In this document: positions 16,016-57,445 of the stretch, in pieces
Layout of the letters: each line of letters starts with the position of its first letter
Position numbering within the stretch: position 1 is the stretch's first letter
Origin: Sinohyriopsis cumingii
Taxonomy: Eukaryota > Mollusca > Bivalvia > Unionida > Unionidae
Assembly: GCA_028554795.2 (NCBI GenBank)
Contig: JAPYKE020000037.1
Location: 6,632,501-6,696,500 of the forward strand
Length of the DNA stretch: 64,000 bases
Reading direction: 5' to 3'
Notes under the pieces: generated by a model
The model's database searches: none
Told to the model about the DNA's origin: nothing
What the model saw: only the letters and a program-made list of their open reading frames with translations
Program-made: the position numbers and the translations under genes

Positions 16016-16348
16016 AGTAGTTAAGTGGGATACATTAGGGACAATGGGACTTAGCATTAAAAAGACCCCTGGGACACTTTAGGGACAATGGAAATTTAAC
16101 ATGGAGAAAAATCGTGGGTCACTTTAGGGACAATGGGAATTTAACATAGAGTTTGGTTCTGTCTAGGGACAAGGGAAATTAACATGGGGAATGGGGAATA
16201 GAGTTTGGGCTTTTGGGATCTTTTTTTTTTTGTTTAAAAAGTTTTTTTTAAATTTAAATTTAAATTTAAATTTAGAAAAGGGGTAGGCAATGGAAAGGCT
16301 ATCTCTTTTCGAGAAATATGGCTGGCCCTGAAAAGGGCCTTTGGGTTT
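16016..16348 (+). repeat. left terminal inverted repeat of element A
   Basis: The repeat matches 32769-33117 in reverse complement. It contains three or four degenerate internal repeats of about 45-50 bp, each with TAGGGACAATGG and ATTTAACATGG-like words, then an AT block built of AAATTT units (about 16250-16275), and finally the stem-loop at 16324-16339. The inverted repeat ends just inside the stem-loop, next to the stop of the first gene. Confidence 0.9.
16324..16339 (-). terminator. histone-type 3' stem-loop
   Basis: On the minus strand this is GGCCCT-TTTC-AGGGCC, the six-base stem and four-base loop of metazoan histone mRNAs. It is preceded by CCAAA and followed by AGCCA. A purine-rich GAAAAGAGAT, like the U7-binding downstream element, lies about 13 nt further on (16301-16310). 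It sits about 50 nt past the stop of the gene at 16393-16749 and lies inside the terminal inverted repeat. Confidence 0.85.
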
Positions 16349-16392
16349 TCTTCTGCTTCTAGTTTCTTCTTTTTCTCCACCAAGTTCTTATT

Positions 16393-16749
16393 TTATCTCC
16401 AACACTCTTTCTCTTCTTTTCTTTCTTTTTTTTTCTCCTGCTCTTCTTTCTTCTTCTCTTCCTCCTCTTCTTTCTTCCTCTTCTCATTTTCTTCTTCTTT
16501 TTCAATCTTTTCGTTCCATTTGCTTATTCTTATTCTTTCCTCTTCATCCTCCTTCTCCTCCTTTATCTCTTTCATGACACCACTAATCTTGTCCTTTACC
16601 TTTTTTAAGTTATTAATTTCCATCTTTACACGATGGGGACTATAGGAATAATGGTCTTCAACCAGTCTTATCAACATCTGCTCCATCATTCCTAAGTTGT
16701 CTAAAACGTCTTGTAATGTTTGTATTTTATCCATTTGGTTAGAAGCCAT
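16393..16749 (-). CDS. coiled-coil accessory protein of element A
   Basis: The product is 118 aa from an ATG at 16747-16749. The first half is a helical, Met/Leu-rich segment (MASNQMDKIQTLQDVLDNLG) and the second half is a Glu/Lys-rich coiled coil. Its 3' end carries the histone-like stem-loop in the terminal repeat. Upstream lie TATA-like GTATAAGAA and two copies of the shared promoter motif (16811-16910). Length, helical character and position match the accessory genes at 17582-17968 and 34403-34996, so I place it in one loose paralogous set. No known function. An assembly or packaging role and host manipulation are both only guesses. Confidence 0.7.
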   Translation of the reverse strand: MASNQMDKIQTLQDVLDNLGMMEQMLIRLVEDHYSYSPHRVKMEINNLKKVKDKISGVMKEIKEEKEDEEERIRISKWNEKIEKEEENEKRKKEEEEEKKKEEQEKKKERKEEKECWR

Positions 16750-16810
16750 CTTCTTTTTTTATTCTTTGCAGAATGGTTTGAACGACGAATACTGTGGGTT
16801 CTTATACTTA

Positions 16811-16910
16811 AAGCGCGTACGTGAAGGAAAACATCCCCCTAAAACGTAAAATTGATCTTACCTAGATCATGACCAAACAACGCGCGGACGTGAAGGAAAA
16901 CATCCCCCTA
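16811..16910 (-). promoter_or_regulatory. promoter cassette: two GGACGTGA-type boxes and a dyad
   Basis: Two copies of a 28-bp box (plus-strand core ACGTGAAGGAAAACATCCCC at 16819-16838 and 16888-16909) flank a 17-bp dyad TGATCT-TACCT-AGATCA at 16853-16869. On the minus strand the first box directly precedes the TATA-like site of the gene at 16393-16749. The same cassette recurs before other accessory genes of A and B. Confidence 0.75.
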
Positions 16911-16959
16911 CTTTTTCATTTCATATAATAAAACCCAAACTATACTCTCCACATACGCT

Positions 16960-17445
16960 AAGAAACAATAAACAAATCCATAATCTACTATTCACACAAT
17001 CGTACGTGAGCGGGTACAAACACAAACACACAAACACAAACACACAAACACATACGCTAAGAAACAATAAACAAAATCCATAATCTACTATCCTCACAAT
17101 CGTACGTGAGCGCTTACAAAACCCAAACTATACTCTTCACATACGCTAAGAAACAATAAACAAATCCATAATCTACTATCCACACAATCGTACGTGAGCG
17201 GGTACAAACACAAACACACAAACACAAACACACAAACACATACGCTAAGAAACAATAAACAAATCCATAATCTGCTATCCACACAATCGTACGTGAGCGG
17301 GTACAAACACAAACACACAAACACAAACACACAAACACATACGCTAAGAAACAATAAACAAATCCATAATCTACTATCCACACAATCGTACGTGAGCGGG
17401 TACAAACACAAACACACAAACACAAACACACAAACACATACCCTC
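16960..17445. repeat. 99-bp minisatellite
   Basis: About four to five tandem units of 99 bp, each with ACGCTAAGAAACAATAAACA, AATCCATAATCTACTATCC, CGTACGTGAGCGGGTAC and a CAAACACA-rich segment. The last full units (17242-17440) are almost identical, so they spread recently. A single, unexpanded version occurs in element B at about 35200-35420. Because 99 is divisible by three, long open frames appear in several registers; I do not take them as genes. Confidence 0.9.
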
Positions 17446-17538
17446 ACACTATCTTTAAAAAGAGTTAGTGTTTATATTCACACTACTCTACCTACACATT
17501 GGCAAATTGATGGTTATTTCTTTTCTAGAGTATTGGGT

Positions 17539-17554
17539 AGCCCTGAAAAGGGCT
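17539..17554 (-). terminator. histone-type 3' stem-loop
   Basis: Minus strand: AGCCCT-TTTC-AGGGCT followed by ACCCA, the canonical tail. GAAAAGAAAT lies at 17516-17525, 13 nt after the stem. It lies 28 nt past the stop of the gene at 17582-17968. The outer stem pair is A-T instead of G-C. Confidence 0.85.
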
Positions 17555-17581
17555 GCTTTTTGGAACTTCATGGACACCTGG

Positions 17582-17968: not shown

Positions 17969-18126
17969 TTTTGGTGTTGATCAATCAACAAGGGTAGCTA
18001 GACTGCCCAGCGAGTTTCAATTTATAGTGAAAGCGCGGACGTGAAGGAAAACATCCCCCTAAAAAAACATAAAATTGATGTTACCTACATCATGACCAAA
18101 AACAACAACGCGCGGACCTAAAAGAA
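17969..18126 (-). promoter_or_regulatory. promoter region of the 17582-17968 gene
   Basis: Minus strand, 5' to 3': a degenerate box (about 18108-18126), a 17-bp dyad TGATGT-TACCT-ACATCA (18076-18092), the full GGACGTGA box (18031-18060), then TATAAATTG at about 18019-18027. The dyad differs from the one at 16853-16869 at two mirror positions, so symmetry is kept. Confidence 0.7.
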
Positions 18127-18416
18127 ACACTCACTCACTTTTTTATGCTACCCATCACTATTTTAAAATTTTTTATAAATCACTTCATTAGACTATCCAC
18201 ATACGCAAAGGAATCCAATCTAACTCCAAATATACACTTCAAACACCAAAAAAACATGATTTTAATCTACTATTCATACCAACTTACTTAAGCACTTACT
18301 AACACACAAACACATACCCTCACATTTTTTAAAAAAGAGTTAGTGTTTATTTTCACACTACTCTACCTACACACATTGGCAAATCGATCGTTATTTCTTT
18401 TCTAGAGTATTGGGGT

Positions 18417-18432
18417 AGCCCTGAAAAGGGCT
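18417..18432 (-). terminator. histone-type 3' stem-loop
   Basis: Minus strand: AGCCCT-TTTC-AGGGCT followed by ACCCC, with GAAAAGAAAT at 18393-18402. It ends the gene at 18463-18834. Confidence 0.85.
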
Positions 18433-18462
18433 GTTTTTTTGTTTGCTATGGCATTCGTTTTT

Positions 18463-18599
18463 TTAGTTTCTAAGAATGCGATGTCCTCTGAGGATAGACT
18501 TTCTGGCGATAGGTCTGCTTCTTCGGAAAGAAAAGAAGAACTCTTTGGTGTCGATACGGCAATCGACAAAGCCTCTGTCAGGTTCAGGTTGCTGCTGCT

Positions 18600-18630
<31 letters not shown>

Positions 18631-18834
18631 TTGCTGCTGTCTCTGAAGTCTGTACTTCTCTGTCCATTCTTCTTTCTCCCTGTTCATTTCTTCTCTGAAG
18701 AGCTCTTCTATCAGGTCTTCAGTGACTTTTAACATTCTCACATTCTCTATTTCTTCTGGCTTCGGTATCAGACTGTGTCTGACCCTATGCAAATTCACGT
18801 AGGCTTCGTTGAGTTTAGCTAGTTTGGAGCACAT
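18463..18834 (-). CDS. Gln-rich accessory protein of element A
   Basis: The first ATG in frame is at 18832-18834 (MCSKLAKLNEAYVNLHRVRH). Then come a helical region with KVTEDLIEELFREE, a run of 17 Gln encoded by mixed CAG/CAA codons, and a Ser/Arg-rich tail. The frame is open further upstream without an ATG. A nearly identical protein is in B (36391-36765) and B'. It ends in the histone-like stem-loop at 18417. The shared promoter box lies at 18901-18927. The helical N-terminus resembles the other accessory proteins in style; role unknown. Confidence 0.7.
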
Positions 18835-18900
18835 CTTCTTAGGAGGATGAGTCGACAATGGATGGTTAGACTGGAAACAACCCGGTTCTTAAAGTCAAAG

Positions 18901-18927
18901 CGCGGACGTGAAGGAAAACATCCCCCA
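18901..18927 (-). promoter_or_regulatory. shared accessory-gene promoter box
   Basis: A copy of the ACGTGAAGGAAAACATCCCC box, here single and without the dyad, about 70 bp upstream of the ATG at 18834. Confidence 0.65.
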
Positions 18928-20544: not shown

Positions 20545-20559
20545 TTTTTGTCTCTTTTC

Positions 20560-22322: not shown

Positions 22323-23432
22323 TCACTTCTTTTTATAGTCGATGACTTGCGAAGCGTCGATCCAAGAATCAACACTGGGTGGATATCCTTTCCAACGTAC
22401 TTTGACTTCTTTGACACGTCGTTTGCCCACTTTACGGGTTCTGCGTTCGAGAATGCTTTCGATGTCGTACACGTCGTCTTCTTTTTTGGTGACACGTTGT
22501 AACTCGGGCAAATAAAACGTTCCTTTGAGCACTTCTCCGTTCATGTCTTCCAATTTATAGACGGTAGGATGACGGCCATGCACTCGTCCAGTGACGCGAA
22601 ACAATTCGGTCGTCCAGTTAGGTAAGTAACCTTTGTCGAAAGTGCGTTTGGTTTTGCCAATGCGCACCCAATCTCCTACAGCCAACATTCCACTTTTCTC
22701 GGGGACAGCCCTCGTCGGGGACGTACCAAACAGGCGCTCAAACACCAACACTTCGTTCTCGGGAGTCACGTCTTGCGGGGCACGTCCGATGCTTCGATGG
22801 TAAGATTGGTTGTACGCTTGCACCAGGTGCGGTAAGATGTCGATGTACTTCAGAGTGTGGTGATGCGTAAAATATTTCCACATGCGTTCTTTCAAAGTGC
22901 GTTGAAAACGTTCCACGATGCTGGCTTTGGTTTCGGGATTCTCAGTGGTAAAAAAATGAATGTCACGTTTCTTTAATTCTTTTTGGAAAGCTTGGTTCAG
23001 AAATTCGGTGCCTTTGTCCGTTTGCCATCGAAGAGGGTGACGACCGCTTTGTTTCAACACCCGTTGCAGGGCTCGCACTAACTCGCTGCTCGATTTGGAA
23101 GTCAAGGGCACGACCCAGGCAAATTTGGAAAAGACGTCGATGACACAAAACAAATATTTGTAGCCACGATTGTAGCTGGCCAAATGAGAGACATCGGCTA
23201 AATCGGCTTGCCATTGATGATCGATGCCTTCCACTCGGGTGCGACTTCTGGCAAACTTGCGTCGAATGGGTTTGTGTAAAGTGTAGGTAGCTTGTTCTTG
23301 TAACCATCGTTGCACTTGAGGTAAACGGAGACTTTTCAGTCGCGTTTTGGCAGCACGATACAATTTTTGAACTCCTGCGTAACCTGCAGGATGGGAGGGA
23401 TCGTAGTAAATGCTGGCTAAGACTTTTTCCAT
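22323..23432 (-). CDS. INT: retroviral-type integrase with chromodomain, element A
   Basis: The 369-aa frame from the ATG at 23430-23432 looks whole. An HHCC-like N-terminus is not obvious. The rve core carries the catalytic acids in WQADLADVSH, WQTDKGTEF and ETKASIVERFQRTLKER (DDE). The C-terminus YDIESILERR-VKVRWKGYPPSVDSW is a chromodomain. Integrases of this build insert Polintons and may direct them to marked chromatin. There is no reverse transcriptase or gag, so this is not an LTR element. B and B' carry broken versions. Confidence 0.9.
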   Translation of the reverse strand: MEKVLASIYYDPSHPAGYAGVQKLYRAAKTRLKSLRLPQVQRWLQEQATYTLHKPIRRKFARSRTRVEGIDHQWQADLADVSHLASYNRGYKYLFCVIDVFSKFAWVVPLTSKSSSELVRALQRVLKQSGRHPLRWQTDKGTEFLNQAFQKELKKRDIHFFTTENPETKASIVERFQRTLKERMWKYFTHHHTLKYIDILPHLVQAYNQSYHRSIGRAPQDVTPENEVLVFERLFGTSPTRAVPEKSGMLAVGDWVRIGKTKRTFDKGYLPNWTTELFRVTGRVHGRHPTVYKLEDMNGEVLKGTFYLPELQRVTKKEDDVYDIESILERRTRKVGKRRVKEVKVRWKGYPPSVDSWIDASQVIDYKKK

Positions 23433-26814: not shown

Positions 26815-29800
26815 CTATCGATCTTGCCTAGGGTTCCTTTTCATATACAGACCAATACCGACGTGACCGTACGGTAAGGTGAAGTGATTGGGAAGTCGCA
26901 CTCGTTTCTGGTATACAATTTGATAGACTTTTTCCAAGGGTCGACTGACGATGTGGTGAGTGGGTAAACGTACAATCTTGTTCGGTTGATAGGTGGTCAC
27001 TTTAAAGTTTCCATCCTCTCCCGATTGCAAGGCTTCTTTCAATACCCCAAAGTTGACCACTCGACTGGTACGATGATTCAGAGTCAGTCCTTTCACTTTG
27101 CACGTCGTGTGCACTTCTCCTTGTTTGTCCCGGTATTCGTAGCCGTAATTTTTGGGACCACCACTGACGAAACTTAGAATCTTGTCGTCGGGATGCTCGT
27201 CTGTCCAGGCTCCTAAACGGTCTCCTTCGAAGTCAGGGTGCTGTTGACTCGGGTGATGGATGTAAATGCAACTGTCCGTGTCAAAGTACAGGACGCGTTC
27301 CCCTAACAGTTCTAAAGCTTCGTACAATTTTAAGCGAGCATGAGCTGTCACGTAAGCCGCAATGATGACGTTTCCAAAAGGGTCGTCTTGTACAAAGTCC
27401 AGATCTTCTTCGTAATTGACCAAGATCAAATCCTCTCGAACGACGTCCACGTGTTTCATGTATTTGGTTTTGTCGTGAATCATCTGGAAGTAGCGGGAAG
27501 GTTCTGTCAAATATTCCGTCTTGGGTAAACACGGTCGTTGTGCCATTTTACCCCACAAGCAATTTAACATCACTTTGGCAAACGATCGCCTGCCTTCGTT
27601 ATTTTCGATGTGGTCTAAAGAGATGCCTTGTTGTGCGTAGTATTTCTCTTTGAATTGTATTTGGTCTTCGGGAGTGTGACACCAGGAAGGATAGCCGCTG
27701 GCTTCTTGTTTCAGTTTCAAAAAGGCATCCACGTAGTCAGCGAAAATGCCTTTCTGAGTAGGGTCACCCTTGTGGTACTGTTGTGTCTTGGGAAAGTGGC
27801 AAATTTCGTACACTTCTAACAGTTGGTATCCCATGTCCAGAGCTTTGAACAATTCCATGCTGACCCAGGTTCTCGTCAAGGCAGGTTCTTCCTGGCTGTG
27901 ATGGCAAGGCTGGTCCTGGTTGCACGTTTCGGCACAAGTACGGCACAAGGGAAACATCAGTTTGCCTTGACAATGGTGAGGTAAGACGGGATGGTATAGG
28001 TTCGTGGGAGGCAAAACTTTACACTTGATCAAGCCTTCGTATTGTCGAATGTTTTTCAGGTCGATGTGTTCCGTGAACAATTGCGGGTGCCCTACAGGAA
28101 AGCGACAATATTTGCACACGTAGAGATACAGCGAACACACGTCCAAGTATTTGATTTCTTCTCCTTTCTCTTCGTCGGCTTGGTACAGCAAACAGGTGGC
28201 ATTGGTCCTTCCTCCGTACAAACTATCCCTCGGGTTCAGCGGGTCCATGAACTGGTAACTTTCCACGAGACGTTTAAACTCGGGATCGGTTTTCAAACGG
28301 TGATCGTACTCGTGTTCCCACATTTCCACCACTTGGTATCCTTGCTGTTCTAACTTTAGGCGTCGCTGACAAGTGTCCTGGTACAAGTCTTCCATGGTTC
28401 GTTGCAAAAACTGATTTTTAGTGCCACGGTCAGGGTAACAGACGGGACATCCGTGAAATAAGCAACCGTTAAACTCGTACACGATCTTGGGGTTTTCTAA
28501 GTCCCAGCCATCTACCGAATACGTTCCGATGGTCTTTTCGCCTCCTCCGTTGCGGGCATGCTGAATCCATTTGTCTTCCTTGTCGCACAAGTAATGTAAC
28601 CAACGTAGGGCTTTGATCGAGTATTGACGCTTGACATAGTGGGTCGTTTGAGGACTGATGACAGCCACGGTGTTTTCAGGCATGAATCGTTGGCGGTACA
28701 CTAAGGAACACGCTTTGGCAATGGTGCAAGCTTCTTTCAAAGGATCGACCCCTCCGTGTTCCATGAACAGTTCTCGAAATTTTCCACAGCAACGCCGTAA
28801 AATGTCCACGTCGGAACGACAATACTTTAACATTTCTTCCTGAAAGTCGAAAGGGTCCGAGGCGTGAGCTTGGTACCAAGCGTAGAAAGCTTCTCGTTGT
28901 TCGGTACGCATGTTGTCGGGGTCGTAATAGTGAGCCTCAGGCAAATGGGGTAGAACAGCATGTTGATTGGCTTCCGTATTGAAAAAGTGTGGAAAGTACC
29001 CTTTAGCCATTTCTGTCATTCCAAACGTTTTAGGCATTCGGCTCAAAGGCATGGCCAAGTAACTCATCGAATCTTTAAACTGTACTTGTCCCACTTGCAT
29101 GAAAATGATTTTGGCTCCGTTCAAAATCACTTTAGGACGTTCGGTGCCATGTTCCGTATAGTACCTCAAAAGAAACTGTCCATCGTATCCGGAGAAATTG
29201 TGAGCCATCACTGTGGCATGACGATGACAATCTCCGTAACGTTCGATGTCCTCTTGGCTCCACGTCTTGTCGTGTTTGGTCCCCGAAAGATTTTTTCACG
29301 CCCTCCAGGAATCTTGCTGCAGTGAGGGCAATGACTGAAGATAGGTTCTTGAATGCACTTCTCGCACGCTCGATGAGCCACGCAGAAATTAGGGATGTGA
29401 ATGCCAGTCTCTTGCATGCATTCGAAATCGAAAAAGATGAAATCGCCTTTCTTCTTGTGACCGTCCTCTTTCTCTGGTGGGGGTTGGTATTTTTGCACGT
29501 AGCATTCGTGTTCCAAGTCCACGATGTGGTGACAAATGTGACATTTTTTCTTTCCTCGACATACGTGTGCTTGGCATTGTTGGTAAGTATGCCTTGTCCA
29601 CAGGTAGGGCACAATCTCAAGAGCTGACAAGCACATTTCTGCTGTGAACCTTGTGTCTTCAGATGTTGCTGGTAACAGGCAGGGCTCACAAACGTACGCA
29701 GACAAGTTGAACAAGGCACTGGTTCTTCGCTCAGACAGGGTGGAGAGGCCAAACATCCTGGGCATTTCAATCCACAATGCTTGTGTTGCTCTCGATTGTT

Positions 29801-31694: not shown

Positions 31695-31710
31695 GGCCCT
31701 GAAAAGGGCC
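31695..31710 (-). terminator. histone-type 3' stem-loop (canonical)
   Basis: Minus strand: AAA then GGCCCT-TTTC-AGGGCC then ACCCA, a full match to the metazoan histone consensus. GAAAAGAAAT at 31672-31681 starts 13 nt after the stem. It lies 27 nt past the stop at 31738. Confidence 0.9.
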
Positions 31711-31737: not shown

Positions 31738-32300
31738 TTAACCAATCAACTTTAACTGCCTTAAGCCTTTGCCACGGCCAAGGCCTACTTCTGATGATTG
31801 GGTTGAAATCACTAAGGGTGGTACGACAGGCTTAGTCACAGGGTTGGCGTGTTTAGCTCGGGAAGGTTGTATTCTCGTCGGTCGTGATAAAGAAGTCTGA
31901 TACATTTGTTTCAGACTTCTTAACTCCGCTAAAATGTCCAACAGTACCGTAGCCTTTTTGATTTTCACCCTCTTGTTTCTTTGCTGCTACTTCTTCTTGC
32001 TGTTGTTGCTGTTGTTTTTTTTCTTACCTCTTCTTGTTGCTGTTGCTGTTGCTGTAGGAGAAAAGCTTGTTCCGCTTCCTTTTGTCGTTGCATAAATTTC
32101 TCCAATTCTTCTTTCTGTCTCTGTCTAAAATTCTCCACTTGCGGTAATGAAGAAGGTAACGAAGATTCCGGAACAAATTCTTGCGAGGTAAGAAAATCCA
32201 CAAAATCCCAATGTACCTCTTCTGAAAGTAAGTCCGGGTTCCCTTGGGCAGTCTCCCCTGCTGGTGCACCCCAATGGATCGTTTTCTGAGTTTCCGTCAT
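31738..32300 (-). CDS. Gln-rich accessory gene region, element A
   Basis: The frame from the ATG 32298-32300 (MTETQKTIHWGAPAGETAQG) has a Trp/Phe-containing N-terminus, a QRQKEELEKFMQRQKEAEQ helix and a run of Gln, ending at 31965. A second open frame (31738-31968) with no ATG start follows at once and ends just before the canonical stem-loop. Whether both frames belong to one product cannot be told from the DNA. The promoter at 32301-32519 is shared with the divergent gene at 32520. Function unknown. Confidence 0.55.
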
Positions 32301-32519: not shown

Positions 32520-32753
32520 ATGTGGACCGATGTGCAATCTTCTACGCTTGTGTCTTCCATGATGTTCCGGACGGACATACCCATGTATGTCCGATCCAAG
32601 TGGGCCGTTGTCCACAGGACAAACACCAGCCTGTGGATACGTAGCATCTACGTAGAAAGACAAGGATGCCTGAAAAGAGTGCTGATTTACGGACCAACAG
32701 TGAGACGTAGCCTAAGGACAAGAAGAAGACCAATGCGGTACCATTTATGTTAA
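32520..32753 (+). CDS. short Arg-rich right-end protein, element A
   Basis: The 77-aa product from the ATG at 32520 starts MWTDVQSSTLVSSMMFRTDI, and its C-terminal half is Arg-rich (RRSLRTRRRPMRYHLC). TATAAATA lies 45-52 bp upstream, so the leader is very short, as in histone genes. The mRNA would end in a plus-oriented histone-like stem-loop at 32778-32793, inside the terminal inverted repeat. The protein is not a histone and I recognise no family. The same gene is in B at 53612-53845. Confidence 0.65.
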   Translation: MWTDVQSSTLVSSMMFRTDIPMYVRSKWAVVHRTNTSLWIRSIYVERQGCLKRVLIYGPTVRRSLRTRRRPMRYHLC

Positions 32754-32768
32754 TGAATACATTAACAT

Positions 32769-33117
32769 AAACCCAAAGGCCCTTTTCAGGGCCAGCCATA
32801 TTTCTCGAAAAGAGATAGCCTTTCCATTGCCTACCCCTTTTTTTAAATTTAAATTTAGATTTAAATTTAAACAAACTTTTAAAAATAAAATTAAAAAAAA
32901 AAAAAAAAAAAAAATACCAAAAGCCCAAACTCTATTCCCCATTCCCCATGTTAATTTCCCTTGTCCCTAGACAGACCCAAACTCTATGTTAAATTCCCAT
33001 TGTCCCTAAAGTGACCCACGATTTTTCCCCATGTTAAATTTCCATTGTCCCTAAAGTGTCCCAGGGGTCTTTTTAATGCTAAGTCCCATTGTCCCTAATG
33101 TATCCCACTTAACTACT
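32769..33117 (-). repeat. right terminal inverted repeat of element A
   Basis: Reverse complement of 16016-16348, with a longer A-run (about 32889-32914). It ends CCCACTTAACTACT. Confidence 0.9.
32778..32793 (+). terminator. histone-type 3' stem-loop
   Basis: Plus strand: AAA, GGCCCT-TTTC-AGGGCC, AGCCA, with GAAAAGAGAT at 32807-32816. It lies 25 nt past the stop of the gene at 32520-32753, in that gene's orientation. Confidence 0.85.
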
Positions 33118-34049: not shown

Positions 34050-34384
34050 AGTAGTGAATAGGGGCACCCTAGCCTCAATGGGAATTAGCATTACAGACCC
34101 CCCTTGGGCAAACCTAGCCTCAATGGAAATTTAACATGGAGAAAAATCGTGGGCAAACCTAGCCTCAAGGGAATTGAACATGGGAAAAAATCGTGGGCCA
34201 CTCTAGCCTCAAGGGGAATTGAACATGGGGAATAAAGTGTGAGTCTATCTAGGGACAAAGGGGAATTGAACATGGGATTTTTTATTTTTTTTCAAAATTT
34301 TTTTTTTTAAAAAAGGGGTAGGCAATTGAAAAGTCATTCTCTTTTCGAGAAATATGCGTGGCCCTGAAAAGGGCCTTTGGGTTT
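34050..34384 (+). repeat. left terminal repeat of element B
   Basis: Built from about four 45-bp units with TAGCCTCAA in place of the TAGGGACAA word of A, plus GGAATT-AACATGG words, then a T-rich block and the stem-loop. It matches the A-type right end of the same element only loosely, so the two ends of B are mismatched. Confidence 0.8.
34360..34375 (-). terminator. histone-type 3' stem-loop
   Basis: Minus strand: AAA, GGCCCT-TTTC-AGGGCC, ACGCA, with GAAAAGAGAA at 34337-34346. It lies 28 nt past the stop of the gene at 34403-34996. Confidence 0.85.
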
Positions 34385-35057: not shown

Positions 35058-35155
35058 AGCGTGGACGTGATGGAAAACATCCCCCTAAAAACATAAAATT
35101 GATCTTACCTAGATCATGACCCAACAACGCGCGGACGTGAAAGAAAACATCTCCT
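35058..35155 (-). promoter_or_regulatory. promoter cassette: two boxes and a dyad
   Basis: Boxes lie at 35058-35085 and 35128-35155, and the dyad TGATCT-TACCT-AGATCA at 35100-35116. TATA-like AGTATAAGAA is at about 35047-35056. The layout equals 16811-16910 of A. Confidence 0.7.
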
Positions 35156-35509: not shown

Positions 35510-35525
35510 AGCCCTGAAAAGGGCT
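35510..35525 (-). terminator. histone-type 3' stem-loop
   Basis: Minus strand: AGCCCT-TTTC-AGGGCT, ACCCA, with GAAAAGAAAT at about 35487-35496. It ends the gene at 35561-35869. Confidence 0.85.
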
Positions 35526-35935: not shown

Positions 35936-36035
35936 AAAGCGCGGACGTGATGGAAAACATCCCCATAAAAACATAAAATTGATCTTATCTAGATCATGAC
36001 CAAAAAAAAAAACAACGCGCGGACCTAAAAGAAAC
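35936..36035 (-). promoter_or_regulatory. promoter cassette of the 35561-35869 gene
   Basis: TATAAATTG lies at about 35926-35934, a box at 35938-35965, a dyad TGATCT-TATCT-AGATCA at 35980-35996, and a degenerate box at about 36016-36034. Confidence 0.65.
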
Positions 36036-36337: not shown

Positions 36338-36353
36338 AGCCCTGAAAAGGGCT
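36338..36353 (-). terminator. histone-type 3' stem-loop
   Basis: Minus strand: AGCCCT-TTTC-AGGGCT, ACCCC, with GAAAAGAAAT at about 36314-36323. It ends the gene at 36391-36765. Confidence 0.85.
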
Positions 36354-36765: not shown

Positions 36766-36857
36766 CTTCGTAGGAGGATGAGTCGACAATGGATGGTTAG
36801 ACTGGAAACAACCCGGTTCTTAAAGTCAAAGCGCGGACGTGAAGGAAAACATCCCCC

Positions 36858-47930: not shown

Positions 47931-50900
47931 TTACAACCAAAGTTTTATACCAACGTGTCCATAAGGCAATGTAAAGTGATTGGGTAGTCGCACTCGCTTC
48001 TGGTACACGATTTGATAGACTTTTTCCAAGGGCCGACTGACGATGTGGTGAGTGGGTAAACGTACAATCTTGTTCGGTTGATAGGTGGTCACTTTAAAGT
48101 TTCCATCCTCTCCCGATTGCAAGGCTTCTTTCAATACCCCAAAGTTGACCACACGCCTGGTACGATAATTCAGAGTTAGTCCTTTCACTTTGCACGTCGT
48201 GTGCACTTCTCCTTGTTTGTCCCGGTATTCGTAGCCGTAATTTTTGGGACCGCCACTGACGAAACTTAGAATCTTGTCGTCGGGATGCTCGTCTGTCCAG
48301 GCTCCTAAACGGTCTCCTTCGATGTCAGGGTGCTGTTGACTCGGGTGATGGATGTAAATGCAACTGTCCGTGTCAAAGTACAGGACGCGTTCCCCTAACA
48401 GTTCTAAAGCTTCGTACAATTTTAAGCGAGCATGAGCTGTCACGTAAGCCGCAATGATGACATTTCCAAAAGGGTCGTCTTGTACAAAGTCCAGATCTTC
48501 TTCGTAATTGACCAAGATCAAATCCTCTCGAACGACGTCCACGTGTTTCATGTATTTGGTTTTGTCGTGAATCATCTGGAAGTAGCGGGAAGGTTCTGTC
48601 AAATATTCCGTCTTGGGTAAACACGGTCGTTGTGCCATTTTACCCCACAAGCAATTTAACATCACTTTGGCAAACGATCGCCTGCCTTCGTTATTTTCGA
48701 TGTGGTCTAAAGAGATGCCTTGTTGTGCGTAGTATTTCTCTTTGAATTGTATTTGGTCTTCGGGAGTGTGACACCAGGAAGGATAGCCGCTGGCTTCTTG
48801 TTTCAGTTTCAAAAAGGCATCCACGTAGTCAGCGAAAATGCCTTTCTGAGTAGGGTCACCCTTGTGGTACTGTTGTGTCTTGGGAAAGTGGCAAATTTCG
48901 TACACTTCTAACAGTTGGTATCCCATGTCCAGAGCTTTGAACAATTCCATGCTGACCCAGGTTCTCGTCAAGGCAGGTTCTTCCTGGCTGTGATGGCAAG
49001 GCTGGTCCTGGTTGCACGTTTCGGCACAAGTACGGCACAAGGGAAACATCAGTTTGCCTTGACAATGGTGAGGTAAGACGGGATGGTATAGGTTCGTGGG
49101 AGGCAAAACTTTACACTTGATCAAGCCTTCGTATTGTCGAATGTTTTTCAGGTCGATGTGTTCCGTGAACAATTGCGGGTGCCCTACAGGAAAGCGACAA
49201 TATTTGCACACGTAGAGATACAGCGAACACACGTCCAAGTATTTGATTTCTTCTCCTTTCTCTTCGTCGGCTTGGTACAGCAAACAGGTGGCATTGGTCC
49301 TTCCTCCGTACAAACTATCCCTCGGGTTCAGCGGGTCCATGAACTGGTAACTTTCCACGAGACGTTTAAACTCGGGATCGGTTTTCAAACGGTGATCGTA
49401 CTCGTGTTCCCACATTTCCACCACTTGGTATCCTTGCTGTTCTAACTTTAGGCGTCGCTGACAAGTGTCCTGGTACAAGTCTTCCATGGTTCGTTGCAAA
49501 AACTGATTTTTAGTGCCACGGTCAGGGTAACAGACGGGACATCCGTGAAATAAGCAACCGTTAAACTCGTACACGATCTTGGGGTTTTCTAAGTCCCAGC
49601 CATCTACCGAATACGTTCCGATGGTCTTTTCGCCTCCTCCGTTGCGGGCATGCTGAATCCATTTGTCTTCCTTGTCGCACAAGTAATGTAACCAACGTAG
49701 GGCTTTGATCGAGTATTGACGCTTGACATAGTGGGTCGTTTGAGGACTGATGACAGCCACGGTGTTTTCAGGCATGAATCGTTGGCGGTACACTAAGGAA
49801 CACGCTTTGGCAATGGTGCAAGCTTCTTTCAAAGGATCGACCCCTCCGTGTTCCATGAACAGTTCTCGAAATTTTCCACAGCAACGCCGTAAAATGTCCA
49901 CGTCGGAACGACAATACTTTAACATTTCTTCCTGAAAGTCGAAAGGGTCCGAGGCGTGAGCTTGGTACCAAGCGTAGAAAGCTTCTCGTTGTTCGGTACG
50001 CATGTTGTCGGGGTCGTAATAGTGAGCCTCAGGCAAATGGGGTAGAACAGCATGTTGATTGGCTTCCGTATTGAAAAAGTGTGGAAAGTACCCTTTAGCC
50101 ATTTCTGTCATTCCAAACGTTTTAGGCATTCGGCTCAAAGGCATGGCCAAGTAACTCATCGAATCTTTAAACTGTACTTGTCCCACTTGCATGAAAATGA
50201 TTTTGGCTCCGTTCAAAATCACTTTAGGACGTTCGGTGCCATGTTCCGTATAGTACCTCAAAAGAAACTGTCCATCGTATCCGGAGAAATTGTGAGCCAT
50301 CACTGTGGCATGACGATGACAATCTCCGTAACGTTCGATGTCCTCTTGGCTCCACGTCTTGTCGTGTTTGGTCCCCGAAAGATTTTTTCACGCCCTCCAG
50401 GAATCTTGCTGCAGTGAGGGCAATGACTGAAGATAGGTTCTTGAATGCACTTCTCGCACGCTCGATGAGCCACGCAGAAATTAGGGATGTGAATGCCAGT
50501 CTCTTGCATGCATTCGAAATCGAAAAAGATGAAATCGCCTTTCTTCTTGTGACCGTCCTCTTTCTCTGGTGGGGGTTGGTATTTTTGCACGTAGCATTCG
50601 TGTTCCAAGTCCACGATGTGGTGACAAATGTGACATTTTTTCTTTCCTCGACATACGTGTGCTTGGCATTGTTGGTAAGTATGCCTTGTCCACAGGTAGG
50701 GCACAATCTCAAGAGCTGACAAGCACATTTCTGCTGTGAACCTTGTGTCTTCAGATGTTGCTGGTAACAGGCAGGGCTCACAAACGTACGCAGACAAGTT
50801 GAACAAGGCACTGGTTCTTCGCTCAGACAGGGTGGAGAGGCCAAACATCCTGGGCATTTCAATCCACAATGCTTGTGTTGCTCTCGATTGTTATAACCAT

Positions 50901-51933
50901 AATCACATTTCTCACAATAATAACCGTATCCCAGGAATCCAGTGATACTGGTAATGGTATCGAAATGGTCATCGTGATGATAGACATGAATGTATTTTCC
51001 GTCCTTAAAGTCTTGGCCTCGAAACAACAGAGACCCGCGCATTTCTTGAGGGTGCACTTTCAAGGTGTATCGTGGAGCTAGGGCATCTTGCAATTTTTGC
51101 ATCTCAGGAATGCCACAGGGTGTGTCTTTGGACAGGCCAGCTTGTTGCAACAGGAGTTCTGCTTCGTTTCGTTGTTTGGTTCGGTTCGATTTTCGAATGT
51201 TCTCCCAGGTTCTTTTCCATTCTACCGTGTCGTTCTTGTTGGCATAGGTTCGTCCCACCACGATGGCACGGGCTAAGCACATCTGGTCTTGAGGGTTGTT
51301 AATTCGGACGAGACTGTTTTTGGTGTTGCGAAGGTCGTCCACCAATAACATCTTTTTGCGTCCTGTCCCTTGAGGAAGAGAGACGTGAGCCATTTTCAGT
51401 GTGGCTTTACCATCGGTGATGTCAAACTGGTCATTAGATTGTTGTACGTGTTGAATCTTGTCCATGATTTTGGAAGGGGTTAGTTCTGCAGGTCTGCTAA
51501 ACTCGATCCAAACAGGGGATTTCAAACCGTCGTGATCTATGGATAGTGTCAAGCGATCGTCTTCTTTGGGTTGACATTGTCGCTTGAGTGCGGTGAGCAA
51601 AGAATCCCACATCTCGGTGATGAACCCTTCTGCTTTCTCCAAGGGTGCGTCGGCCTTGAAATCTTTAAACTTCACCGTGTAGGTGTAAGCCGTGGTTCTA
51701 AATTTTCTAGAGGAGCGCTTTTCCGTCTCTCGAATGGAATAGTATTTTTCAGGGTTGACTAAGGGTGACGAACTTGGTTTAGAGGTTTCAAATTCTGGTT
51801 CACTCATGTCCTCTTCAAAATCACTGGCATGAATCTGTGCCAAGATTTCAGCCCTGGTACGAGGCGATAGATCACGTTTCTGCCTCTTACTTTCTTCTTC
51901 TTCTTTCTTCTCGAATGAATGGGATCGTTTCAT
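47931..51933 (-). pseudogene. POLB: protein-primed DNA polymerase B, element B
   Basis: Same gene as 26815-30841 and nearly identical to it over most of its length. The extreme C-terminus differs (FTLPYGHVGIKLWL), and a few differences cluster left of about 48.5 kb. That is where the near-identity between A and B begins, and it marks the likely crossover. Broken in the same way as A. Confidence 0.88.
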
Positions 51934-52068
51934 CTTGAGTGCAAAACGTCAAATGACTCAAGTTTAAACACCATAGACTAATTTATAGTCTTGGCAAACC
52001 AGCGTATATAAAAAGGGTGTGTGTCTTGTCCTTTCACTATTCATTTCACTCTCAAGCTGAGCACAACG
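51934..52068. promoter_or_regulatory. divergent promoter, polB and zinc-knuckle gene
   Basis: Copy of 30842-30976 with both TATA boxes. Confidence 0.7.
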
Positions 52069-52539
52069 ATGGAAGAGACTACCCAGATGGAACGTTTCGT
52101 CAGAGCTTTGCGAGGGGTCATTAGAAAATTCTCTTCAGACCAGCCGACGGACTACTCTCCTTCCTTTCGAGATAAAAGTCAAGATACTTGCTATATCTGT
52201 CAGAAGAAAGGGCATTGGTCTTCAGAGTGTCCAGACCGTCAAAAAAGAACAAAAACAGGGGATAAAAAAGACAAAAGTCAAGATACCTGTTATTATTGTA
52301 AAGAAAAAGGACATTGGTCTCCAGATTGCCCAAAAAAGAAACAAGAGGAGTCAGAAGAAAAGAAGGATTCTTCAGAAGAAGAGAGGGATTCTTCGGAAGA
52401 AGAGAGGGATTCTTCAGAGGAAGAAGAGGAAGAAAGAAGACAATTCTATTTAAAAGAGGCAAAGAAACAGGAGAAGAAAAGAAGAAGGGAAGAAAATGAG
52501 GAAAAAACGGTGAAGAAATTCAAAAAACAGAGAGACTAA
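52069..52539 (+). CDS. two-CCHC zinc-knuckle protein, element B
   Basis: Identical in protein sequence, as far as I can see, to 30977-31447. Confidence 0.8.
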   Translation: MEETTQMERFVRALRGVIRKFSSDQPTDYSPSFRDKSQDTCYICQKKGHWSSECPDRQKRTKTGDKKDKSQDTCYYCKEKGHWSPDCPKKKQEESEEKKDSSEEERDSSEEERDSSEEEEEERRQFYLKEAKKQEKKRRREENEEKTVKKFKKQRD

Positions 52540-52786
52540 ATAATGAAAAAGAAGAAGTGTACGAACTTTTTAAAGTGTTCTGTGGTGAATTGTGAATTGG
52601 ATTGTAAAAAAATGGATAAAAGAATACATGAATGATATAAGGTAAGTGTCTTTGAGTTTTGATTTTAAAATAAGAAGCTACACTCACGCACTCATACACA
52701 GACACGTACTATAAGGGTAAAATGGGTGGGTTTATTTTTGAGTTATTGGCAAATTGAAATTGTATTTCTTTTCGAGAAATGTGGGT

Positions 52787-52802
52787 GGCCCTGAAAAGGG
52801 CC
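52787..52802 (-). terminator. histone-type 3' stem-loop (canonical)
   Basis: Copy of 31695-31710. Confidence 0.9.
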
Positions 52803-52829
52803 TTTTTTCTTTATGGTGTAGAAGTGAGT

Positions 52830-53392
52830 TTAACCAATCAACTTTAACTGCCTTAAGCCTTTGCCACGGCCAAGGCCTACTTCTGATGATTGGGTTGAAA
52901 TCACTAAGGGTGGTACGACAGGCTTAGTCACAGGGTTGGCGTGTTTAGCTCGGGAAGGTTGTATTCTCGTCGGTCGTGATAAAGAAGTCTGATACATTTG
53001 TTTCAGACTTCTTAACTCCGCTAAAATGTCCAACAGTACCGTAGCCTTTTTGATTTTCACCCTCTTGTTTCTTTGCTGCTACTTCTTCTTGCTGTTGTTG
53101 CTGTTGTTTTTTTTCTTACCTCTTCTTGTTGCTGTTGCTGTTGCTGTAGGAGAAAAGCTTGTTCCGCTTCCTTTTGTCGTTGCATAAATTTCTCCAATTC
53201 TTCTTTCTGTCTCTGTCTAAAATTCTCCACTTGCGGTAATGAAGAAGGTAACGAAGGTTCCGGAACAAATTCTTGCGAGGTAAGAAAATCCACAAAATCC
53301 CAATGTACCTCTTCTGAAAGTAAGTCCGGGTTCCCTTGGGCAGTCTCCCCTGCTGGTGCACCCCAATGGATCGTTTTCTGAGTTTCCGTCAT
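52830..53392 (-). CDS. Gln-rich accessory gene region, element B
   Basis: Copy of 31738-32300; one residue differs in the N-terminal half (SFVPEPS versus FVPESS region). Confidence 0.55.
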
Positions 53393-53611
53393 GTTGAATC
53401 ACTGTCGTATAGATTGACTGCACACAAGCGCTAGCGAATCTATATAGACCAACTGACGTCACAGACTACTCTCTTCGGATTGGATGCGGGCTGACTGAAT
53501 TTTGTAACGCGTGTTTGGATTGGTGAATGAACTCAATCCGTTTCAATCCTGCCTCTACCTATAAATAAGCGCAGTTCAGTGCATTGATTCACCTGTTCTC
53601 GTCGCTTCAAG
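53393..53611. promoter_or_regulatory. divergent histone-pair-like promoter
   Basis: Copy of 32301-32519 with the same TATA, CCAAT and CRE elements. Confidence 0.7.
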
Positions 53612-53845
53612 ATGTGGACCGATGTGCAATCTTCTACGCTTGTGTCTTCCATGATGTTCCGGACGGACATACCCATGTATGTCCGATCCAAGTGGGCCGT
53701 TGTCCACAGGACAAACACCAGCCTGTGGATACGTAGCATCTACGTAGAAAGACAAGGATGCCTGAAAAGAGTGCTGATTTACGGACCAACAGTGAGACGT
53801 AGCCTAAGGACAAGAAGAAGACCAATGCGGTACCATTTATGTTAA
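53612..53845 (+). CDS. short Arg-rich right-end protein, element B
   Basis: Copy of 32520-32753, same 77 aa. Confidence 0.65.
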   Translation: MWTDVQSSTLVSSMMFRTDIPMYVRSKWAVVHRTNTSLWIRSIYVERQGCLKRVLIYGPTVRRSLRTRRRPMRYHLC

Positions 53846-53860
53846 TGAATACATTAACAT

Positions 53861-54211
53861 AAACCCAAAGGCCCTTTTCAGGGCCAGCCATATTTCTCGA
53901 AAAGAGATAGCCTTTCCATTGCCTACCCCTTTTTTTAAATTTAAATTTAGATTTAAATTTAAAAAAACTTTTAAAAATAAAATTAAAAAAAAAAAAAAAA
54001 AAAAAAAATACCAAAAGCCCAAACTCTATTCCCCATTCCCCATGTTAATTTCCCTTGTCCCTAGACAGACCCAAACTCTATGTTAAATTCCCATTGTCCC
54101 TAAAGTGACCCACGATTTTTCCCCATGTTAAATTTCCATTGTCCCTAAAGTGTCCCAGGGGTCTTTTTAATGCTAAGTCCCATTGTCCCTAATGTATCCC
54201 ACTTAACTACT
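53861..54211 (-). repeat. right terminal repeat of element B (A-type)
   Basis: Nearly identical to 32769-33117; differs mainly in the length of the A-run. It is followed by AACAGT as in A. Confidence 0.88.
53870..53885 (+). terminator. histone-type 3' stem-loop
   Basis: Copy of 32778-32793, plus orientation. Confidence 0.85.
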
Positions 54212-55143
54212 AACAGTTGAAATTGAAGCTGCTATCGTATTTATAATGAAAACACCAACATATGGAAATAAAAAAATCAACTTATCGGGAGTTTAACCAC
54301 ATTTCAACAACTAAAGGAAAACAAAGAAATTGCAATTAACACAATGTAACAATAATGAAATAAAGAAAACAACAAGATAGACTAACAACTAACTAATGCA
54401 GGATGACTGACGTTAGTGGTGAATTGGTATGCAGATGAATTTAGTATGCAAACTAATTTCGTATGTACATTTTAATGAATAAGGAAATCCTTTATTATGA
54501 GAAATATTGACACTGCCTCAATCATAATAAGTGATATATCCAGTCTTATCGAACGACTTTGGGGAATACTTTTCCTTGCCACGCAGTACAGGGTCAAATG
54601 CATCATATCGAAGAAGTTCACGGATTTGAAGACAAACAAGGACACCTTCCTTTATCATAGCTTCATTTAACGTTGGAAATTTTACACGGAAGTACTTGAA
54701 AGCTGCTTGCAATTTGTCCATGGTCTTGACAAAGTATTTCAACATACCTAGCTTGAAGTGCAAGGGTGGTAACAAAATAATCATTGATTTTACAAGCGGC
54801 GGATGCGTAACACTTTTCCTCCAACGCTCCAATGACTGTCGGAGTGGCCAATCTCTCTTGATGTAGTGGGAATCTCTAGCACGACTATCCCATTCACAGA
54901 GAAAACAACTATACCTTGTGTATTCAGTCTGCAGACCAAGCAAGAGAGCAAGAACCTTCAAATCGCCACAAAGCTGCCACTGATGTTAGTCATAGTTTAT
55001 GCACCTCAAAAGTTGTTTCATGTTTTCATTGGTTTCATTCACATGGACAGCATGACCAACTGGGATTGATGATACAACATTGCCATTATGCAGCAAAACA
55101 GATTTAAGACTCGTCTTCGATGAATCAATGAACAGTCTCCATC
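54212..55143. other. second copy of the 932-bp host spacer
   Basis: Same sequence as 33118-34049, including the gene fragment at 54518-54985. That a non-Polinton spacer is duplicated with the element shows that the repeat unit is element plus spacer. Confidence 0.85.
54518..54985 (-). pseudogene. fragment of repetitive animal gene family (copy)
   Basis: Copy of 33424-33891. Confidence 0.5.
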
Positions 55144-55453
55144 AGTAGTGAATAGGGGCACCCTAGCCTCAATGGGAATTAGCATTACAGACCCCCCTTG
55201 GGCAAACCTAGCCTCAATGGAAATTTAACATGGAGAAAAATCGTGGGCAAACCTAGCCTCAAGGGAATTGAACATGGGAAAAAATCGTGGGCCACTCTAG
55301 CCTCAAGGGGAATTGAACATGGGGAATAAAGTGTGAGTCTATCTAGGGACAAAGGGGAATTGAACATGGGATTTTTTATTTTTTTTCAAAATTTTTTTTT
55401 TTTAAAAAGGGGTAGGCAATTGAAAAGTCATTCTCTTTTCGAGAAATATGCGT

Positions 55454-55469
55454 GGCCCTGAAAAGGGCC
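55454..55469 (-). terminator. histone-type 3' stem-loop
   Basis: Copy of 34360-34375. Confidence 0.85.
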
Positions 55470-55496
55470 TTTGGGTTTCTTCTTCTTCTTCTTCTT

Positions 55497-56090
55497 CTAA
55501 CACTTCCACTTCTTCAACCATCTTCTCACTTTTGTCACTATTCCTGTCTTCTTTTTCTCCTTTTCTGGCATCCAGTCAGGATGGCCTAGAGCTCTAAACT
55601 TTTCCTGAACTTTTATCCAATTCTGATTCAGCCTCTCAAACTCTGCCTGTTTCTTTTTGTTTTCCACATCTTTTCTTTCTTCCTTCCATTTCTCTTTAAT
55701 CTTCTCTACTTCTTCCTCCATTACTTTTCTCATCAGATCTTCCACTTTCTTCACCTTGTCCAACCCCCATTTTACATTCCTCCACTCTGTCCAGCACAAT
55801 ATTTTTTCTAGGAAGCACCGGACTTTGATGACATGATCCAGTGCTTCCTTCAAACTTCCTACTCTGAAGTAAGGTGGGTTAATGAAGCCTCTTGACTTAT
55901 TGACTTCTTCTTCAATCATCTCTGCTATGATATCTCTTGCTGTCTTTAGGCCTTGAACTTGACTGGTTACAAAGTCTTTCATATCTCCATGCCTCCATTC
56001 CTCTTCTATTTTTCCTACAACATATTCTACATCCATTATCCAAAAATAGATGTCTCTCAATAGATTAAATAGAACTGATACTTGAGTCAT
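55497..56090 (-). CDS. coiled-coil accessory protein, B'
   Basis: Copy of 34403-34996, same 197 aa; promoter cassette at about 56152-56249. Confidence 0.7.
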   Translation of the reverse strand: MTQVSVLFNLLRDIYFWIMDVEYVVGKIEEEWRHGDMKDFVTSQVQGLKTARDIIAEMIEEEVNKSRGFINPPYFRVGSLKEALDHVIKVRCFLEKILCWTEWRNVKWGLDKVKKVEDLMRKVMEEEVEKIKEKWKEERKDVENKKKQAEFERLNQNWIKVQEKFRALGHPDWMPEKEKKKTGIVTKVRRWLKKWKC

Positions 56091-56603
56091 TTTGTCTCAG
56101 TTATTCCTTAGAATGGTTCCAACATCATACTTTGTGGGTTCTTATACTGAAAGCGTGGACGTGATGGAAAACATCCCCCTAAAAACATAAAATTGATCTT
56201 ACCTAGATCATGACCCAACAACGCGCGGACGTGAAAGAAAACATCTCCTACTTTTCTCATTTCATCTAATATACTATCCAAATAAGTGAAGCAACATTTA
56301 ACAAACCCCAAATCTACTATTTACACACGCAAATCATTAAAACTAAATCCATAATCTACTATCCACTCAATCGTACGTGAACCGTTACAAAACCCAAACT
56401 ATACTCTACACATACGCTAAGAAACAATCGAGAAACCCATAATCTACTATTCACACCAACGGACGTGAGCAGTTACAAACACAAACACAAACACACAAAC
56501 ACATACACTCGCACTATGAAAAAAGAGTTAGTGTTTATATTCACACTACTCTACCTACACACATTGGCAAATTGATGGTTATTTCTTTTCTAGAGTATTG
56601 GGT

Positions 56604-56619
56604 AGCCCTGAAAAGGGCT
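56604..56619 (-). terminator. histone-type 3' stem-loop
   Basis: Copy of 35510-35525. Confidence 0.85.
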
Positions 56620-56653
56620 GTTGTTTTTTTTTTTGAACTCCAGATGCACCTAT

Positions 56654-56962
56654 CTAATGATGGCACCTTCCTGGCCTGGCGCCACACACGCATCTTCTTC
56701 CCCAGTCTCCTTTCACCTTTCTTCTTGGGAGTGCAGAGGCGGGATGATTGGCTTCAGCACCCCAATCCTCTGTCTCTGGTATCTTGTAAGTCATCCTCTC
56801 TCCTATTTTCTTTTCCTCCTCTTCCCTCTCTCTTCTCTCCTCCTCTTCCTTCTTTATTCTTGCCTCTTCTACTATGGCTTCCGCTGATAGTTCATTTACT
56901 ATGCGCCTGGCATATTCCAGGTGCATCTGGAGTTCTAGCAGTTTCACAATTCTGGTGTTCAT
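56654..56962 (-). CDS. coiled-coil accessory protein, B'
   Basis: Copy of 35561-35869; starts MNTRIVKLLELQMHLEYARR. Confidence 0.7.
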   Translation of the reverse strand: MNTRIVKLLELQMHLEYARRIVNELSAEAIVEEARIKKEEEERREREEEEKKIGERMTYKIPETEDWGAEANHPASALPRRKVKGDWGRRCVCGARPGRCHH

Positions 56963-57429
56963 TCTTCTGGTGGTGTTGATTAATCAACAAGGGTAGCTAG
57001 ACTGCCGAGCGAGTTTCAATTTATACTGAAAGCGCGGACGTGATGGAAAACATCCCCATAAAAACATAAAATTGATCTTATCTAGATCATGACCAAAAAA
57101 AAAACAACGCGCGGACCTAAAAGAAACACTCACTCACTTTTTTATACTACCCATTCCTATTCTAAAAATTTTTTTATCAATCACTTCAATAGACTATCCA
57201 CATACGCAAAGCAATCCAATCAAATCCCCACACCTCAAACACCAAAAAAAAGACATCATTTTAATCTACTATCCACACAAACGTACGCGAGCACTTACAA
57301 ACACACAATCTTATACACAAACACATACACTCACATTTTTTTAAAAAAAGAGTTAGTGTTTATATTCACACTACTCTACCTACACACATTGACAAATTGA
57401 TGGTTATTTCTTTTCTAGAGTATTGGGGT

Positions 57430-57445
57430 AGCCCTGAAAAGGGTT
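57430..57445 (-). terminator. histone-type 3' stem-loop, least perfect copy
   Basis: Copy of 36338-36353 with the outer stem slightly weakened; loop and tail are kept. Confidence 0.7.

Follow-up and report, generated by a model that had tools for sequence, protein, structure and literature searches.

In the bivalve Sinohyriopsis cumingii, a family of Polinton-like mobile elements carries accessory genes that, from their sequences, appear to end as histone genes do. We analyzed 64,000 nucleotides (nt) of contig JAPYKE020000037.1 (this whole stretch is called the window, and coordinates below are window positions), which holds an element A, an element B and a partial duplicate of both. Accessory genes at five positions, S1 to S5, end in what we read as the 3′-end signal of the host's replication-dependent histone genes, and S1–S3 also possess histone-type promoter boxes. 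By far the most likely reading, in our judgment, is that these genes are expressed as replication-dependent, non-polyadenylated mRNAs of the histone type. A preliminary description of this DNA had proposed use of the histone pathway on the strength of the hairpins; the analysis supports that proposal, and the promoter boxes of S1–S3, which it did not name, also point to histone-type control.

Histone-type signals at the 3′ ends of accessory genes

Histone mRNAs of metazoans have been characterized as a class of their own that lacks poly(A) tails (PMC12775136). As outlined in PMC7026596, SLBP binds their stem-loop, the U7 small nuclear ribonucleoprotein pairs with the histone downstream element (HDE), and CPSF73 cuts 4–5 nt past the stem-loop, with ACCCA lying before the cleavage site; Lucina histone mRNAs are reported to have a palindrome near the stop codon (PMC6210712). 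The window has 12 exact copies of the hairpin RGCCCTTTTCAGGGCY and a further one with a single mismatch, and these 13 sites compare with 0.05 expected by chance and were equaled in none of 100 shuffles. The twelve hairpins first reported, ten on the minus strand and two on the plus, hold as the exact count; with the one-off copy there are 11 minus and two plus, and only eight are independent because a duplication copies five (52787, 53870, 55454, 56604 and 57430). Seven of the 13 reach the gathering score (34 bits) of the Rfam model RF00032, the five with an A-T closing pair score 28–31.2 bits, and 12 overall are matched at E ≤ 8.6e-4, above background as had been anticipated; the one-mismatch hairpin is not listed at E ≤ 1. 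Every RF00032 site of the window lies inside the elements.

The eight independent hairpins occupy five positions per element: S1 in the left terminal repeat, S2, S3, S4, and S5 at the right. All share the stem, the loop, an A-rich lead and the HDE GAAAAGA about 13 nt on, with a tail of ACCCA, AGCCA, ACGCA or ACCCC and variable nucleotides between tail and HDE. Lead, tail and purine motif are as first described, the layout is that of RF00032 (6-bp stem, 4-nt U-rich loop, ACCCA-type tail, purine-rich HDE about 13 nt on), and the cis features for SLBP and U7 stand in the same order and spacing as described for histone mRNAs. Each hairpin also follows the strand of the gene that it ends, as claimed; the plus-strand hairpin at 32778 (and its duplicate at 53870) is S5, a mirror copy of the left-end S1 hairpin within extended terminal repeats, both reading outward. 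Stop codons lie 24–53 nt before the stem, close to the 25–60 nt first given; the S4 hairpin is 254 nt past a 111-amino-acid (aa) open reading frame (ORF) and 27 nt past a 55-aa ORF. Another genomic copy has an uninterrupted 190-aa S4 ORF with its stop 24 nt from the stem, and the two ORFs here look like pieces of one gene. Relaxing the scan to exactly three mismatches gave nine extra sites in the window and 48 loci; none has an HDE-like motif, one has a gene only on the opposite strand and eight have no gene, and we took them as chance or unrelated rather than as further signals. A 16-mer, AGTACTTTTCAGGGTT, three mismatches from the hairpin and without an HDE, recurs in L014, L015, L039, L040, L042, L043 and L050 and is probably part of an element gene unrelated to the hairpin.

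The host's own histone genes end in the same way. A PF00125 search of the host gave 662 candidates and, of these, 150 scored matches; the matches lie largely in tandem units about 8.27–8.29 kb long. The histone unit L080 contains H3, H4, H2B, H2A and H1, with a stem-loop 27–38 nt past each stop (GGCCCTTTTTAGGGCC in H3 and H4; GGCCCTTTTCAGGGCC in H2B, the same as the element's; GGCCCTTTTAAGGGCC in H2A; GGTCCTTTTCAGGACC in H1) and an HDE core, GAAAAGA or in H2A GAAAAGG, at 13–14 nt past the stem. Element and host are alike in the GGCCCT/AGGGCC stem (four of the five host genes), the UUUC loop (H2B and H1), the A-rich lead, and the HDE and stop-to-stem spacing. They differ in the A-T closing pair of element S2 and S3, in the tail (mostly ACCCA in the elements; ACACA, ACAAA, ATACA or ACTTT in the host unit), and in that the element proteins are not histones and their genes reside in a mobile, virus-like element. 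A covariance model built from the five L080 3′ ends alone recovered all 13 window hairpins (E 1.2e-9 to 6.5e-6), the next-best window match having E 0.69, which bears out the expectation that host histone genes would have a matching stem-loop and HDE.

To look beyond the window, we searched the 2.9-Gb host assembly with RF00032 and took 75 places, each with about 1.5 kb either side; all are over the RF00032 cut-off, and as those scored and reported of 589,472 first-look candidates they are not a census. All 75 hold genes of this element family. Together they contain 149 hairpins (≤2 mismatches), scoring up to 45.6 bits with RF00032 against 35.0–39.4 in L080. An accessory gene ends upstream, within 450 nt, on the same strand at 146 of these and on the opposite strand at none; at three no gene was detected. 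The loop is TTTC in 144 of the 149, and the closing pair is G-C in 122, A-T in 20, G-T in two and unpaired in five, a two-sided change. An HDE-like motif starts 13 nt past the stem in 135 hairpins and 14 nt past it in two, and it accompanies 68 of the 74 hairpins other than the chosen match. Because the 75 central sites had been chosen by their hairpin, we recounted on gene ends found by protein similarity, excluding the chosen match. All 62 accessory-gene ends in this recount, which are still no farther than 1.5 kb from a chosen hairpin and so belong to element copies that were themselves selected, have a hairpin (≤2 mismatches, ≤150 nt; S1 1, S2 20, S4 26, S5 15). Other element genes contributed 13 ends (12 of the CCHC protein, one of a protease), and none of these has the hairpin, their best sites showing 6–8 mismatches.

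Promoter boxes shared with host histone genes

The genes S1, S2 and S3 of both elements and of the duplicate are preceded by a shared box, GGGATGTTTTCCTTCACGTMCGCG. At up to three mismatches it has 12 places in the window (eight without the duplicated ones; 0.00 expected), and all 12 precede S1–S3 start codons, by 63–70 or 133 nt. The host histones have the same box, 85 nt before the ATG in H2B (three mismatches) and 83 nt before it in H1 (two mismatches). In the B S2 gene this box agrees with the host H2B promoter at 24 of 24 nt. Each of the two S2 genes is also preceded by a second box, which agrees with the host H4 promoter at 21 of 21 nt. A TATA-like motif (TATAAA, TATAAG or TTTAAG) stands 56–63 nt before the ATG of the six S1–S3 genes of A and B. 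When positions 16000–37000 were compared with the histone unit (blastn, E ≤ 0.01), only the promoter boxes and the stem-loop/HDE sites matched, and the control positions 1–15900 gave no match at that threshold. A looser scan (five mismatches) of L001–L079 found 56 boxes, all in L005–L079, and an ORF start follows 43 of them. Element A also has tandem repeats of about 99 and 188 bp (16881–17450), located between the S1 promoter and the 3′ end of S2; they are rich in TGTGTTTG, contain CGCTCACGTACGATTG and are a possible regulatory array.

Conservation and competing explanations

Conservation was scored at 101 sites from 48 loci and the window, about half of them hairpin-selected, in five classes of 10–33 sites (a sixth, with two, was omitted). 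Mean pairwise identity is 0.95–0.99 in the stem-loop against 0.73–0.91 just upstream, 0.89–0.96 in the tail, and past +46 it is 0.48–0.59 in four of the five classes and 0.95 in S2. The HDE stands above its preceding spacer in S2, A-type S1 and S4 (0.91–0.96 versus 0.73–0.84); in S5 and B-type S1 it shows no excess (0.83–0.84 versus 0.86–0.88). The case from conservation is thus clear for the stem-loop and more uneven for the HDE.

The uneven HDE is one of several observations that count against histone-type expression. Twelve of the 149 genomic hairpins have no HDE-like motif. The host-type promoter found at S1–S3 does not extend to S4 and S5, a divergent pair with no 24-bp box. Four contigs with distant capsid relatives (L001–L004), which lie in bacterial assemblies and which we took as host contamination, have neither stem-loop nor promoter box. 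The matching host U7 small nuclear RNA that had been expected did not appear: RF00066, with 65 of 801,960 candidates scored, gave no match at E ≤ 0.1; the presence of stem-loop and HDE on the host's own histones implies the SLBP/U7 pathway. Finally, AATAAA follows the stop within 500 nt in four of the eight gene entries with a hairpin, which makes poly(A) isoforms possible. It does so in five of the 28 entries without one, and the earlier contrast, in which AATAAA was assigned to the capsid and polymerase-side genes in place of the hairpin, is not supported as a rule.

Could the signals be inherited passengers, descended from an ancestral capture of a histone 3′ end (and promoter), spread by duplication within the element and now functionless? 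The mirror copies S1 and S5 in the terminal repeats and the likeness of the S2 and S3 3′ ends would suit such a history, as would the bare contigs L001–L004 and an HDE in S5 and B-type S1 kept no better than the spacer. We nevertheless consider it unlikely: the stem-loop is best or near-best conserved in all five classes, bearing in mind that about half the sites were hairpin-selected, and the HDE rises above the spacer in S2, A-type S1 and S4. Moreover, the hairpin is kept at every unselected end while its closing pair varies on both sides, and the promoter boxes are kept at a near-fixed distance. Somewhat less credible again is a role for the hairpins confined to mRNA stability or translation through SLBP binding, with most transcripts ending at downstream poly(A) sites. 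The AATAAA motifs after half of the hairpin gene entries would fit it, but 137 of 149 hairpins have at +13/+14 the HDE, which is known to serve in U7 pairing, and neither AATAAA nor ATTAAA occurs within 500 nt at S1 and S2 of A or at S2 of B.

It is very improbable that the hairpins belong to host histone genes or pseudogenes in or beside the elements, with the accessory ORFs as bystanders. The signals are indeed those of host histones, and such 3′ ends normally mark histone genes, but no H2A-, H2B-, H3- or H4-like protein (H1 was not used as a query) occurs within 3 kb at any of the 75 places, the host histones sit in their separate tandem units, and 16000–37000 has no match to the coding parts of the histone unit at E ≤ 0.01. 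Equally hard to credit is a role at the DNA level, in replication, packaging or end recognition, for although S1 and S5 face outward inside the terminal inverted repeats, S2, S3 and S4 are internal, the loop, tail and HDE match histone mRNAs, and a DNA palindrome needs neither a gene-fixed strand (146 of 149) nor an HDE-like motif at 13–14 nt.

If the accessory genes are expressed as histone-type mRNAs, S1–S3 would be transcribed with the host histone programme from the boxes shared with H2B and H1 (for S2 also H4), and the SLBP/U7 machinery would cleave the accessory transcripts a few nucleotides past the stem-loop. From these cis signals we infer that the products would be short, intronless, non-polyadenylated mRNAs accumulating while the cell makes DNA, and the purpose may be to have these proteins made at a time when the element's DNA can be replicated along with the host's. 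A broader and more doubtful proposal, which we advance tentatively, is that the gene block has turned into a histone look-alike at both ends, with host H2B/H1 and H4 boxes and stem-loop/HDE. It would be read in the S-phase histone regulon, perhaps in histone locus bodies. Bursts of small charged proteins would then accompany histone production while element DNA is copied, and these proteins might package or protect that DNA.

Expression of this kind would break the one-to-one link between histones and non-polyadenylated mRNAs (149 sites in 75 places) and would add a new means by which a DNA element ties its gene expression to replication of the host's DNA. The elements also supply natural, repeated variants of stem-loop, HDE and promoter for testing the requirements of SLBP, U7 and histone transcription factors. 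In addition, they caution against taking every RF00032 match in an animal genome for a histone gene, and the accessory genes might go unseen in poly(A)-selected RNA data.

The elements, their relatives and known systems

Element A (16016–33117) has terminal inverted repeats and the Polinton gene set, and element B starts at about 34050 (Table 1). The 99.76% identity of 26855–42541 with 47947–63632 is, on sequence, a tandem duplication of about 21 kb that takes in the right part of A, the spacer and the left part of B; the right half of B is probably a copy of A's right half. Such a duplication is as expected of recombination between adjoining copies, or is possibly an assembly artefact.

Table 1. 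Coordinates of signals, genes and repeats in the window
Feature	Position	Strand	Evidence
S1 stem-loop, A; HDE GAAAAGAGAT begins 13 nt past stem	16324..16339	-	pattern scan, RF00032, host-histone model
S2 stem-loop (A-T closing pair), A	17539..17554	-	pattern scan, RF00032, host-histone model
S3 stem-loop, A	18417..18432	-	pattern scan, RF00032, host-histone model
S4 stem-loop; top RF00032 score of window, 41.2 bits, equaled by its duplicate	31695..31710	-	
S5 stem-loop, within right terminal repeat	32778..32793	+	pattern scan, RF00032, host-histone model
S1 stem-loop, B	34360..34375	-	pattern scan, RF00032, host-histone model
S2 stem-loop, B	35510..35525	-	pattern scan, RF00032, host-histone model
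S3 stem-loop, B	36338..36353	-	pattern scan, RF00032, host-histone model
H2B/H1-type box, A S1, 64 nt before ATG (second copy 16883-16906)	16814..16837	-	
H2B/H1-type box, A S2, 65 nt before ATG	18034..18057	-	
Second A S2 box, 21/21 with host H4 promoter (L080:1501-1521)	18107..18127	-	
H2B/H1-type box, A S3, 66 nt before ATG	18901..18924	-	
Box, B S1, 63 nt before ATG (second copy 35130-35153)	35060..35083	-	
Box, B S2; 35938-35961 is 24/24 with host H2B promoter	35938..35963	-	
H4-type box, B S2, 21/21 with host H4 promoter	36014..36034	-	
Box, B S3, 66 nt before ATG	36832..36855	-	
S1 accessory gene, A, 118 aa, charged; stop 53 nt before stem	16393..16749	-	
S2 accessory gene, A, 128 aa	17582..17968	-	
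S3 accessory gene, A, 123 aa, polyglutamine stretch	18463..18834	-	
S4 accessory gene, two ORFs here (111 aa, 55 aa)	31738..32300	-	
S5 ORF, 77 aa, divergent from S4; similar sequences in other copies	32520..32753	+	
S1 accessory gene, B, 197 aa	34403..34996	-	all-helical structure prediction
S2 accessory gene, B, 102 aa	35561..35869	-	
S3 accessory gene, B, 124 aa	36391..36765	-	
Left terminal inverted repeat, A (inner part: S1 hairpin and HDE, reading outward)	16016..16349	.	alignment with 32768-33117; blastn 92.6% over 349
Right terminal inverted repeat, A (S5 hairpin and HDE, reading outward)	32768..33117	.	alignment and blastn with left repeat
Integrase (rve and Chromo), no hairpin	22323..23432	-	PF00665 E 3e-14, PF00385 E 3.1e-7
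DNA polymerase B, A, no hairpin	26815..29208	-	PF03175, E 9.9e-40; domain match made on copy 47931-50300
Major capsid protein, B, no hairpin	38163..39386	-	structure model matches viral capsids
Duplicate of 26855-42541; copies of S4, S5 and B S1-S3 hairpins (52787, 53870, 55454, 56604, 57430)	47947..63632	.	99.76% identity

By its PF03175 match the DNA polymerase B (PolB) is of the viral/organellar, protein-primed type, and an A32-type packaging ATPase is present (Pox_A32, E 4.3e-7). BFVD entries matching the capsid model of element B number 88 at E ≤ 0.001, with root-mean-square deviations above 5; many bear the name major capsid protein, in line with a double-jelly-roll capsid, and adomavirus, virophage and adintovirus entries are among them. 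The model has no PDB sequence match. The best BFVD match is R9XLG5, an uncharacterized bracovirus protein with 33% identity; this hints that the genomes of wasps or bracoviruses may contain Polinton capsid genes. Sequence searches with this capsid found 549 relatives at E ≤ 0.001. Among the best 120 of these 549, the closest full-length ones are unnamed proteins (79–83% identity), those with animal names are from bivalves (Mercenaria, Ostrea, Crassostrea and Saccostrea; 44–54%), and two bear bacterial names, which we took for contamination. These relatives suggest a bivalve-type Polinton/adintovirus-like element.

Other genes of the elements include a 152-aa BIR (inhibitor of apoptosis) domain protein of B (46765–47223, minus) and a 156-aa CCHC zinc-knuckle protein (30977–31447, plus) on the opposite strand to most genes, with no stem-loop at its end. 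A 5S rRNA gene (13294–13412, minus; RF00001, 96.8 bits) lies about 2.6 kb from element A. We dropped the idea of a histone/5S cluster that it raised, having found by eye no histone gene among the ORFs and all RF00032 sites in the elements. The accessory proteins scanned (B's S3 not among them) match no Pfam family at the curated cut-off and no histone family, and show neither a histone fold nor H1. For A's S1 there is a TAF4 match below threshold (E 7.4e-4, 19.8 bits, cut-off 33), and the model of the 197-aa B S1 protein is helical with no confident PDB match (best E 0.025). The S4 protein ends in GRGKG..., kept in most relatives, which we take to resemble the start of histone H4, perhaps by chance.

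Relatives of the S4 and B-type S1 proteins (54–91% identity) occur among unnamed or metagenome-derived proteins. Two of them read past the usual stop, P0125 with ...KPKGPFQGHS and P0134 with ...WPISGPPTSLEKRY, and these extensions could be translations of the hairpin, the tail and, in P0134, the HDE. Read in this way, the two proteins suggest that diverged relatives also carry the hairpin signal. In viral contigs an exact pattern scan for the hairpin found no stretch, and protein scans with the capsid protein, PolB and the S4 alignment confirmed no relatives. On the Bathymodiolus-symbiont contig L002 there is a weak twister-P1 ribozyme match downstream of the capsid match (11623–11687, plus; 28.9 bits, below gathering).

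The preliminary description knew of no such signals in Polintons. A survey of polinton-like viruses and virophages does count six "histone 3′UTR stem-loop" matches in its collection, and none in 1107 cryptophyte polinton-like viruses, in its available text as a count without discussion and with no gene, strand, HDE or promoter (PMC12220804). Apart from that count, our searches of an open-access library listed no virus or mobile element with histone-type 3′ ends or promoters on its own non-histone genes, and we found no described system of this kind. The elements in S. cumingii offer a possible reading of those six unexplained RF00032-type matches (PMC12220804).

The elements resemble Polinton/Maverick elements and Adintoviridae in having PolB, an rve integrase with a chromodomain, an A32-type ATPase, a viral-type capsid and terminal inverted repeats, and differ from those described in that their accessory genes have histone-type promoters and 3′ ends. 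Some viruses carry histone genes, such as the H4 of bracoviruses and those of marseilleviruses. Both cases link virus-like genomes to histone biology; there the protein is a histone, whereas here only the signals are.

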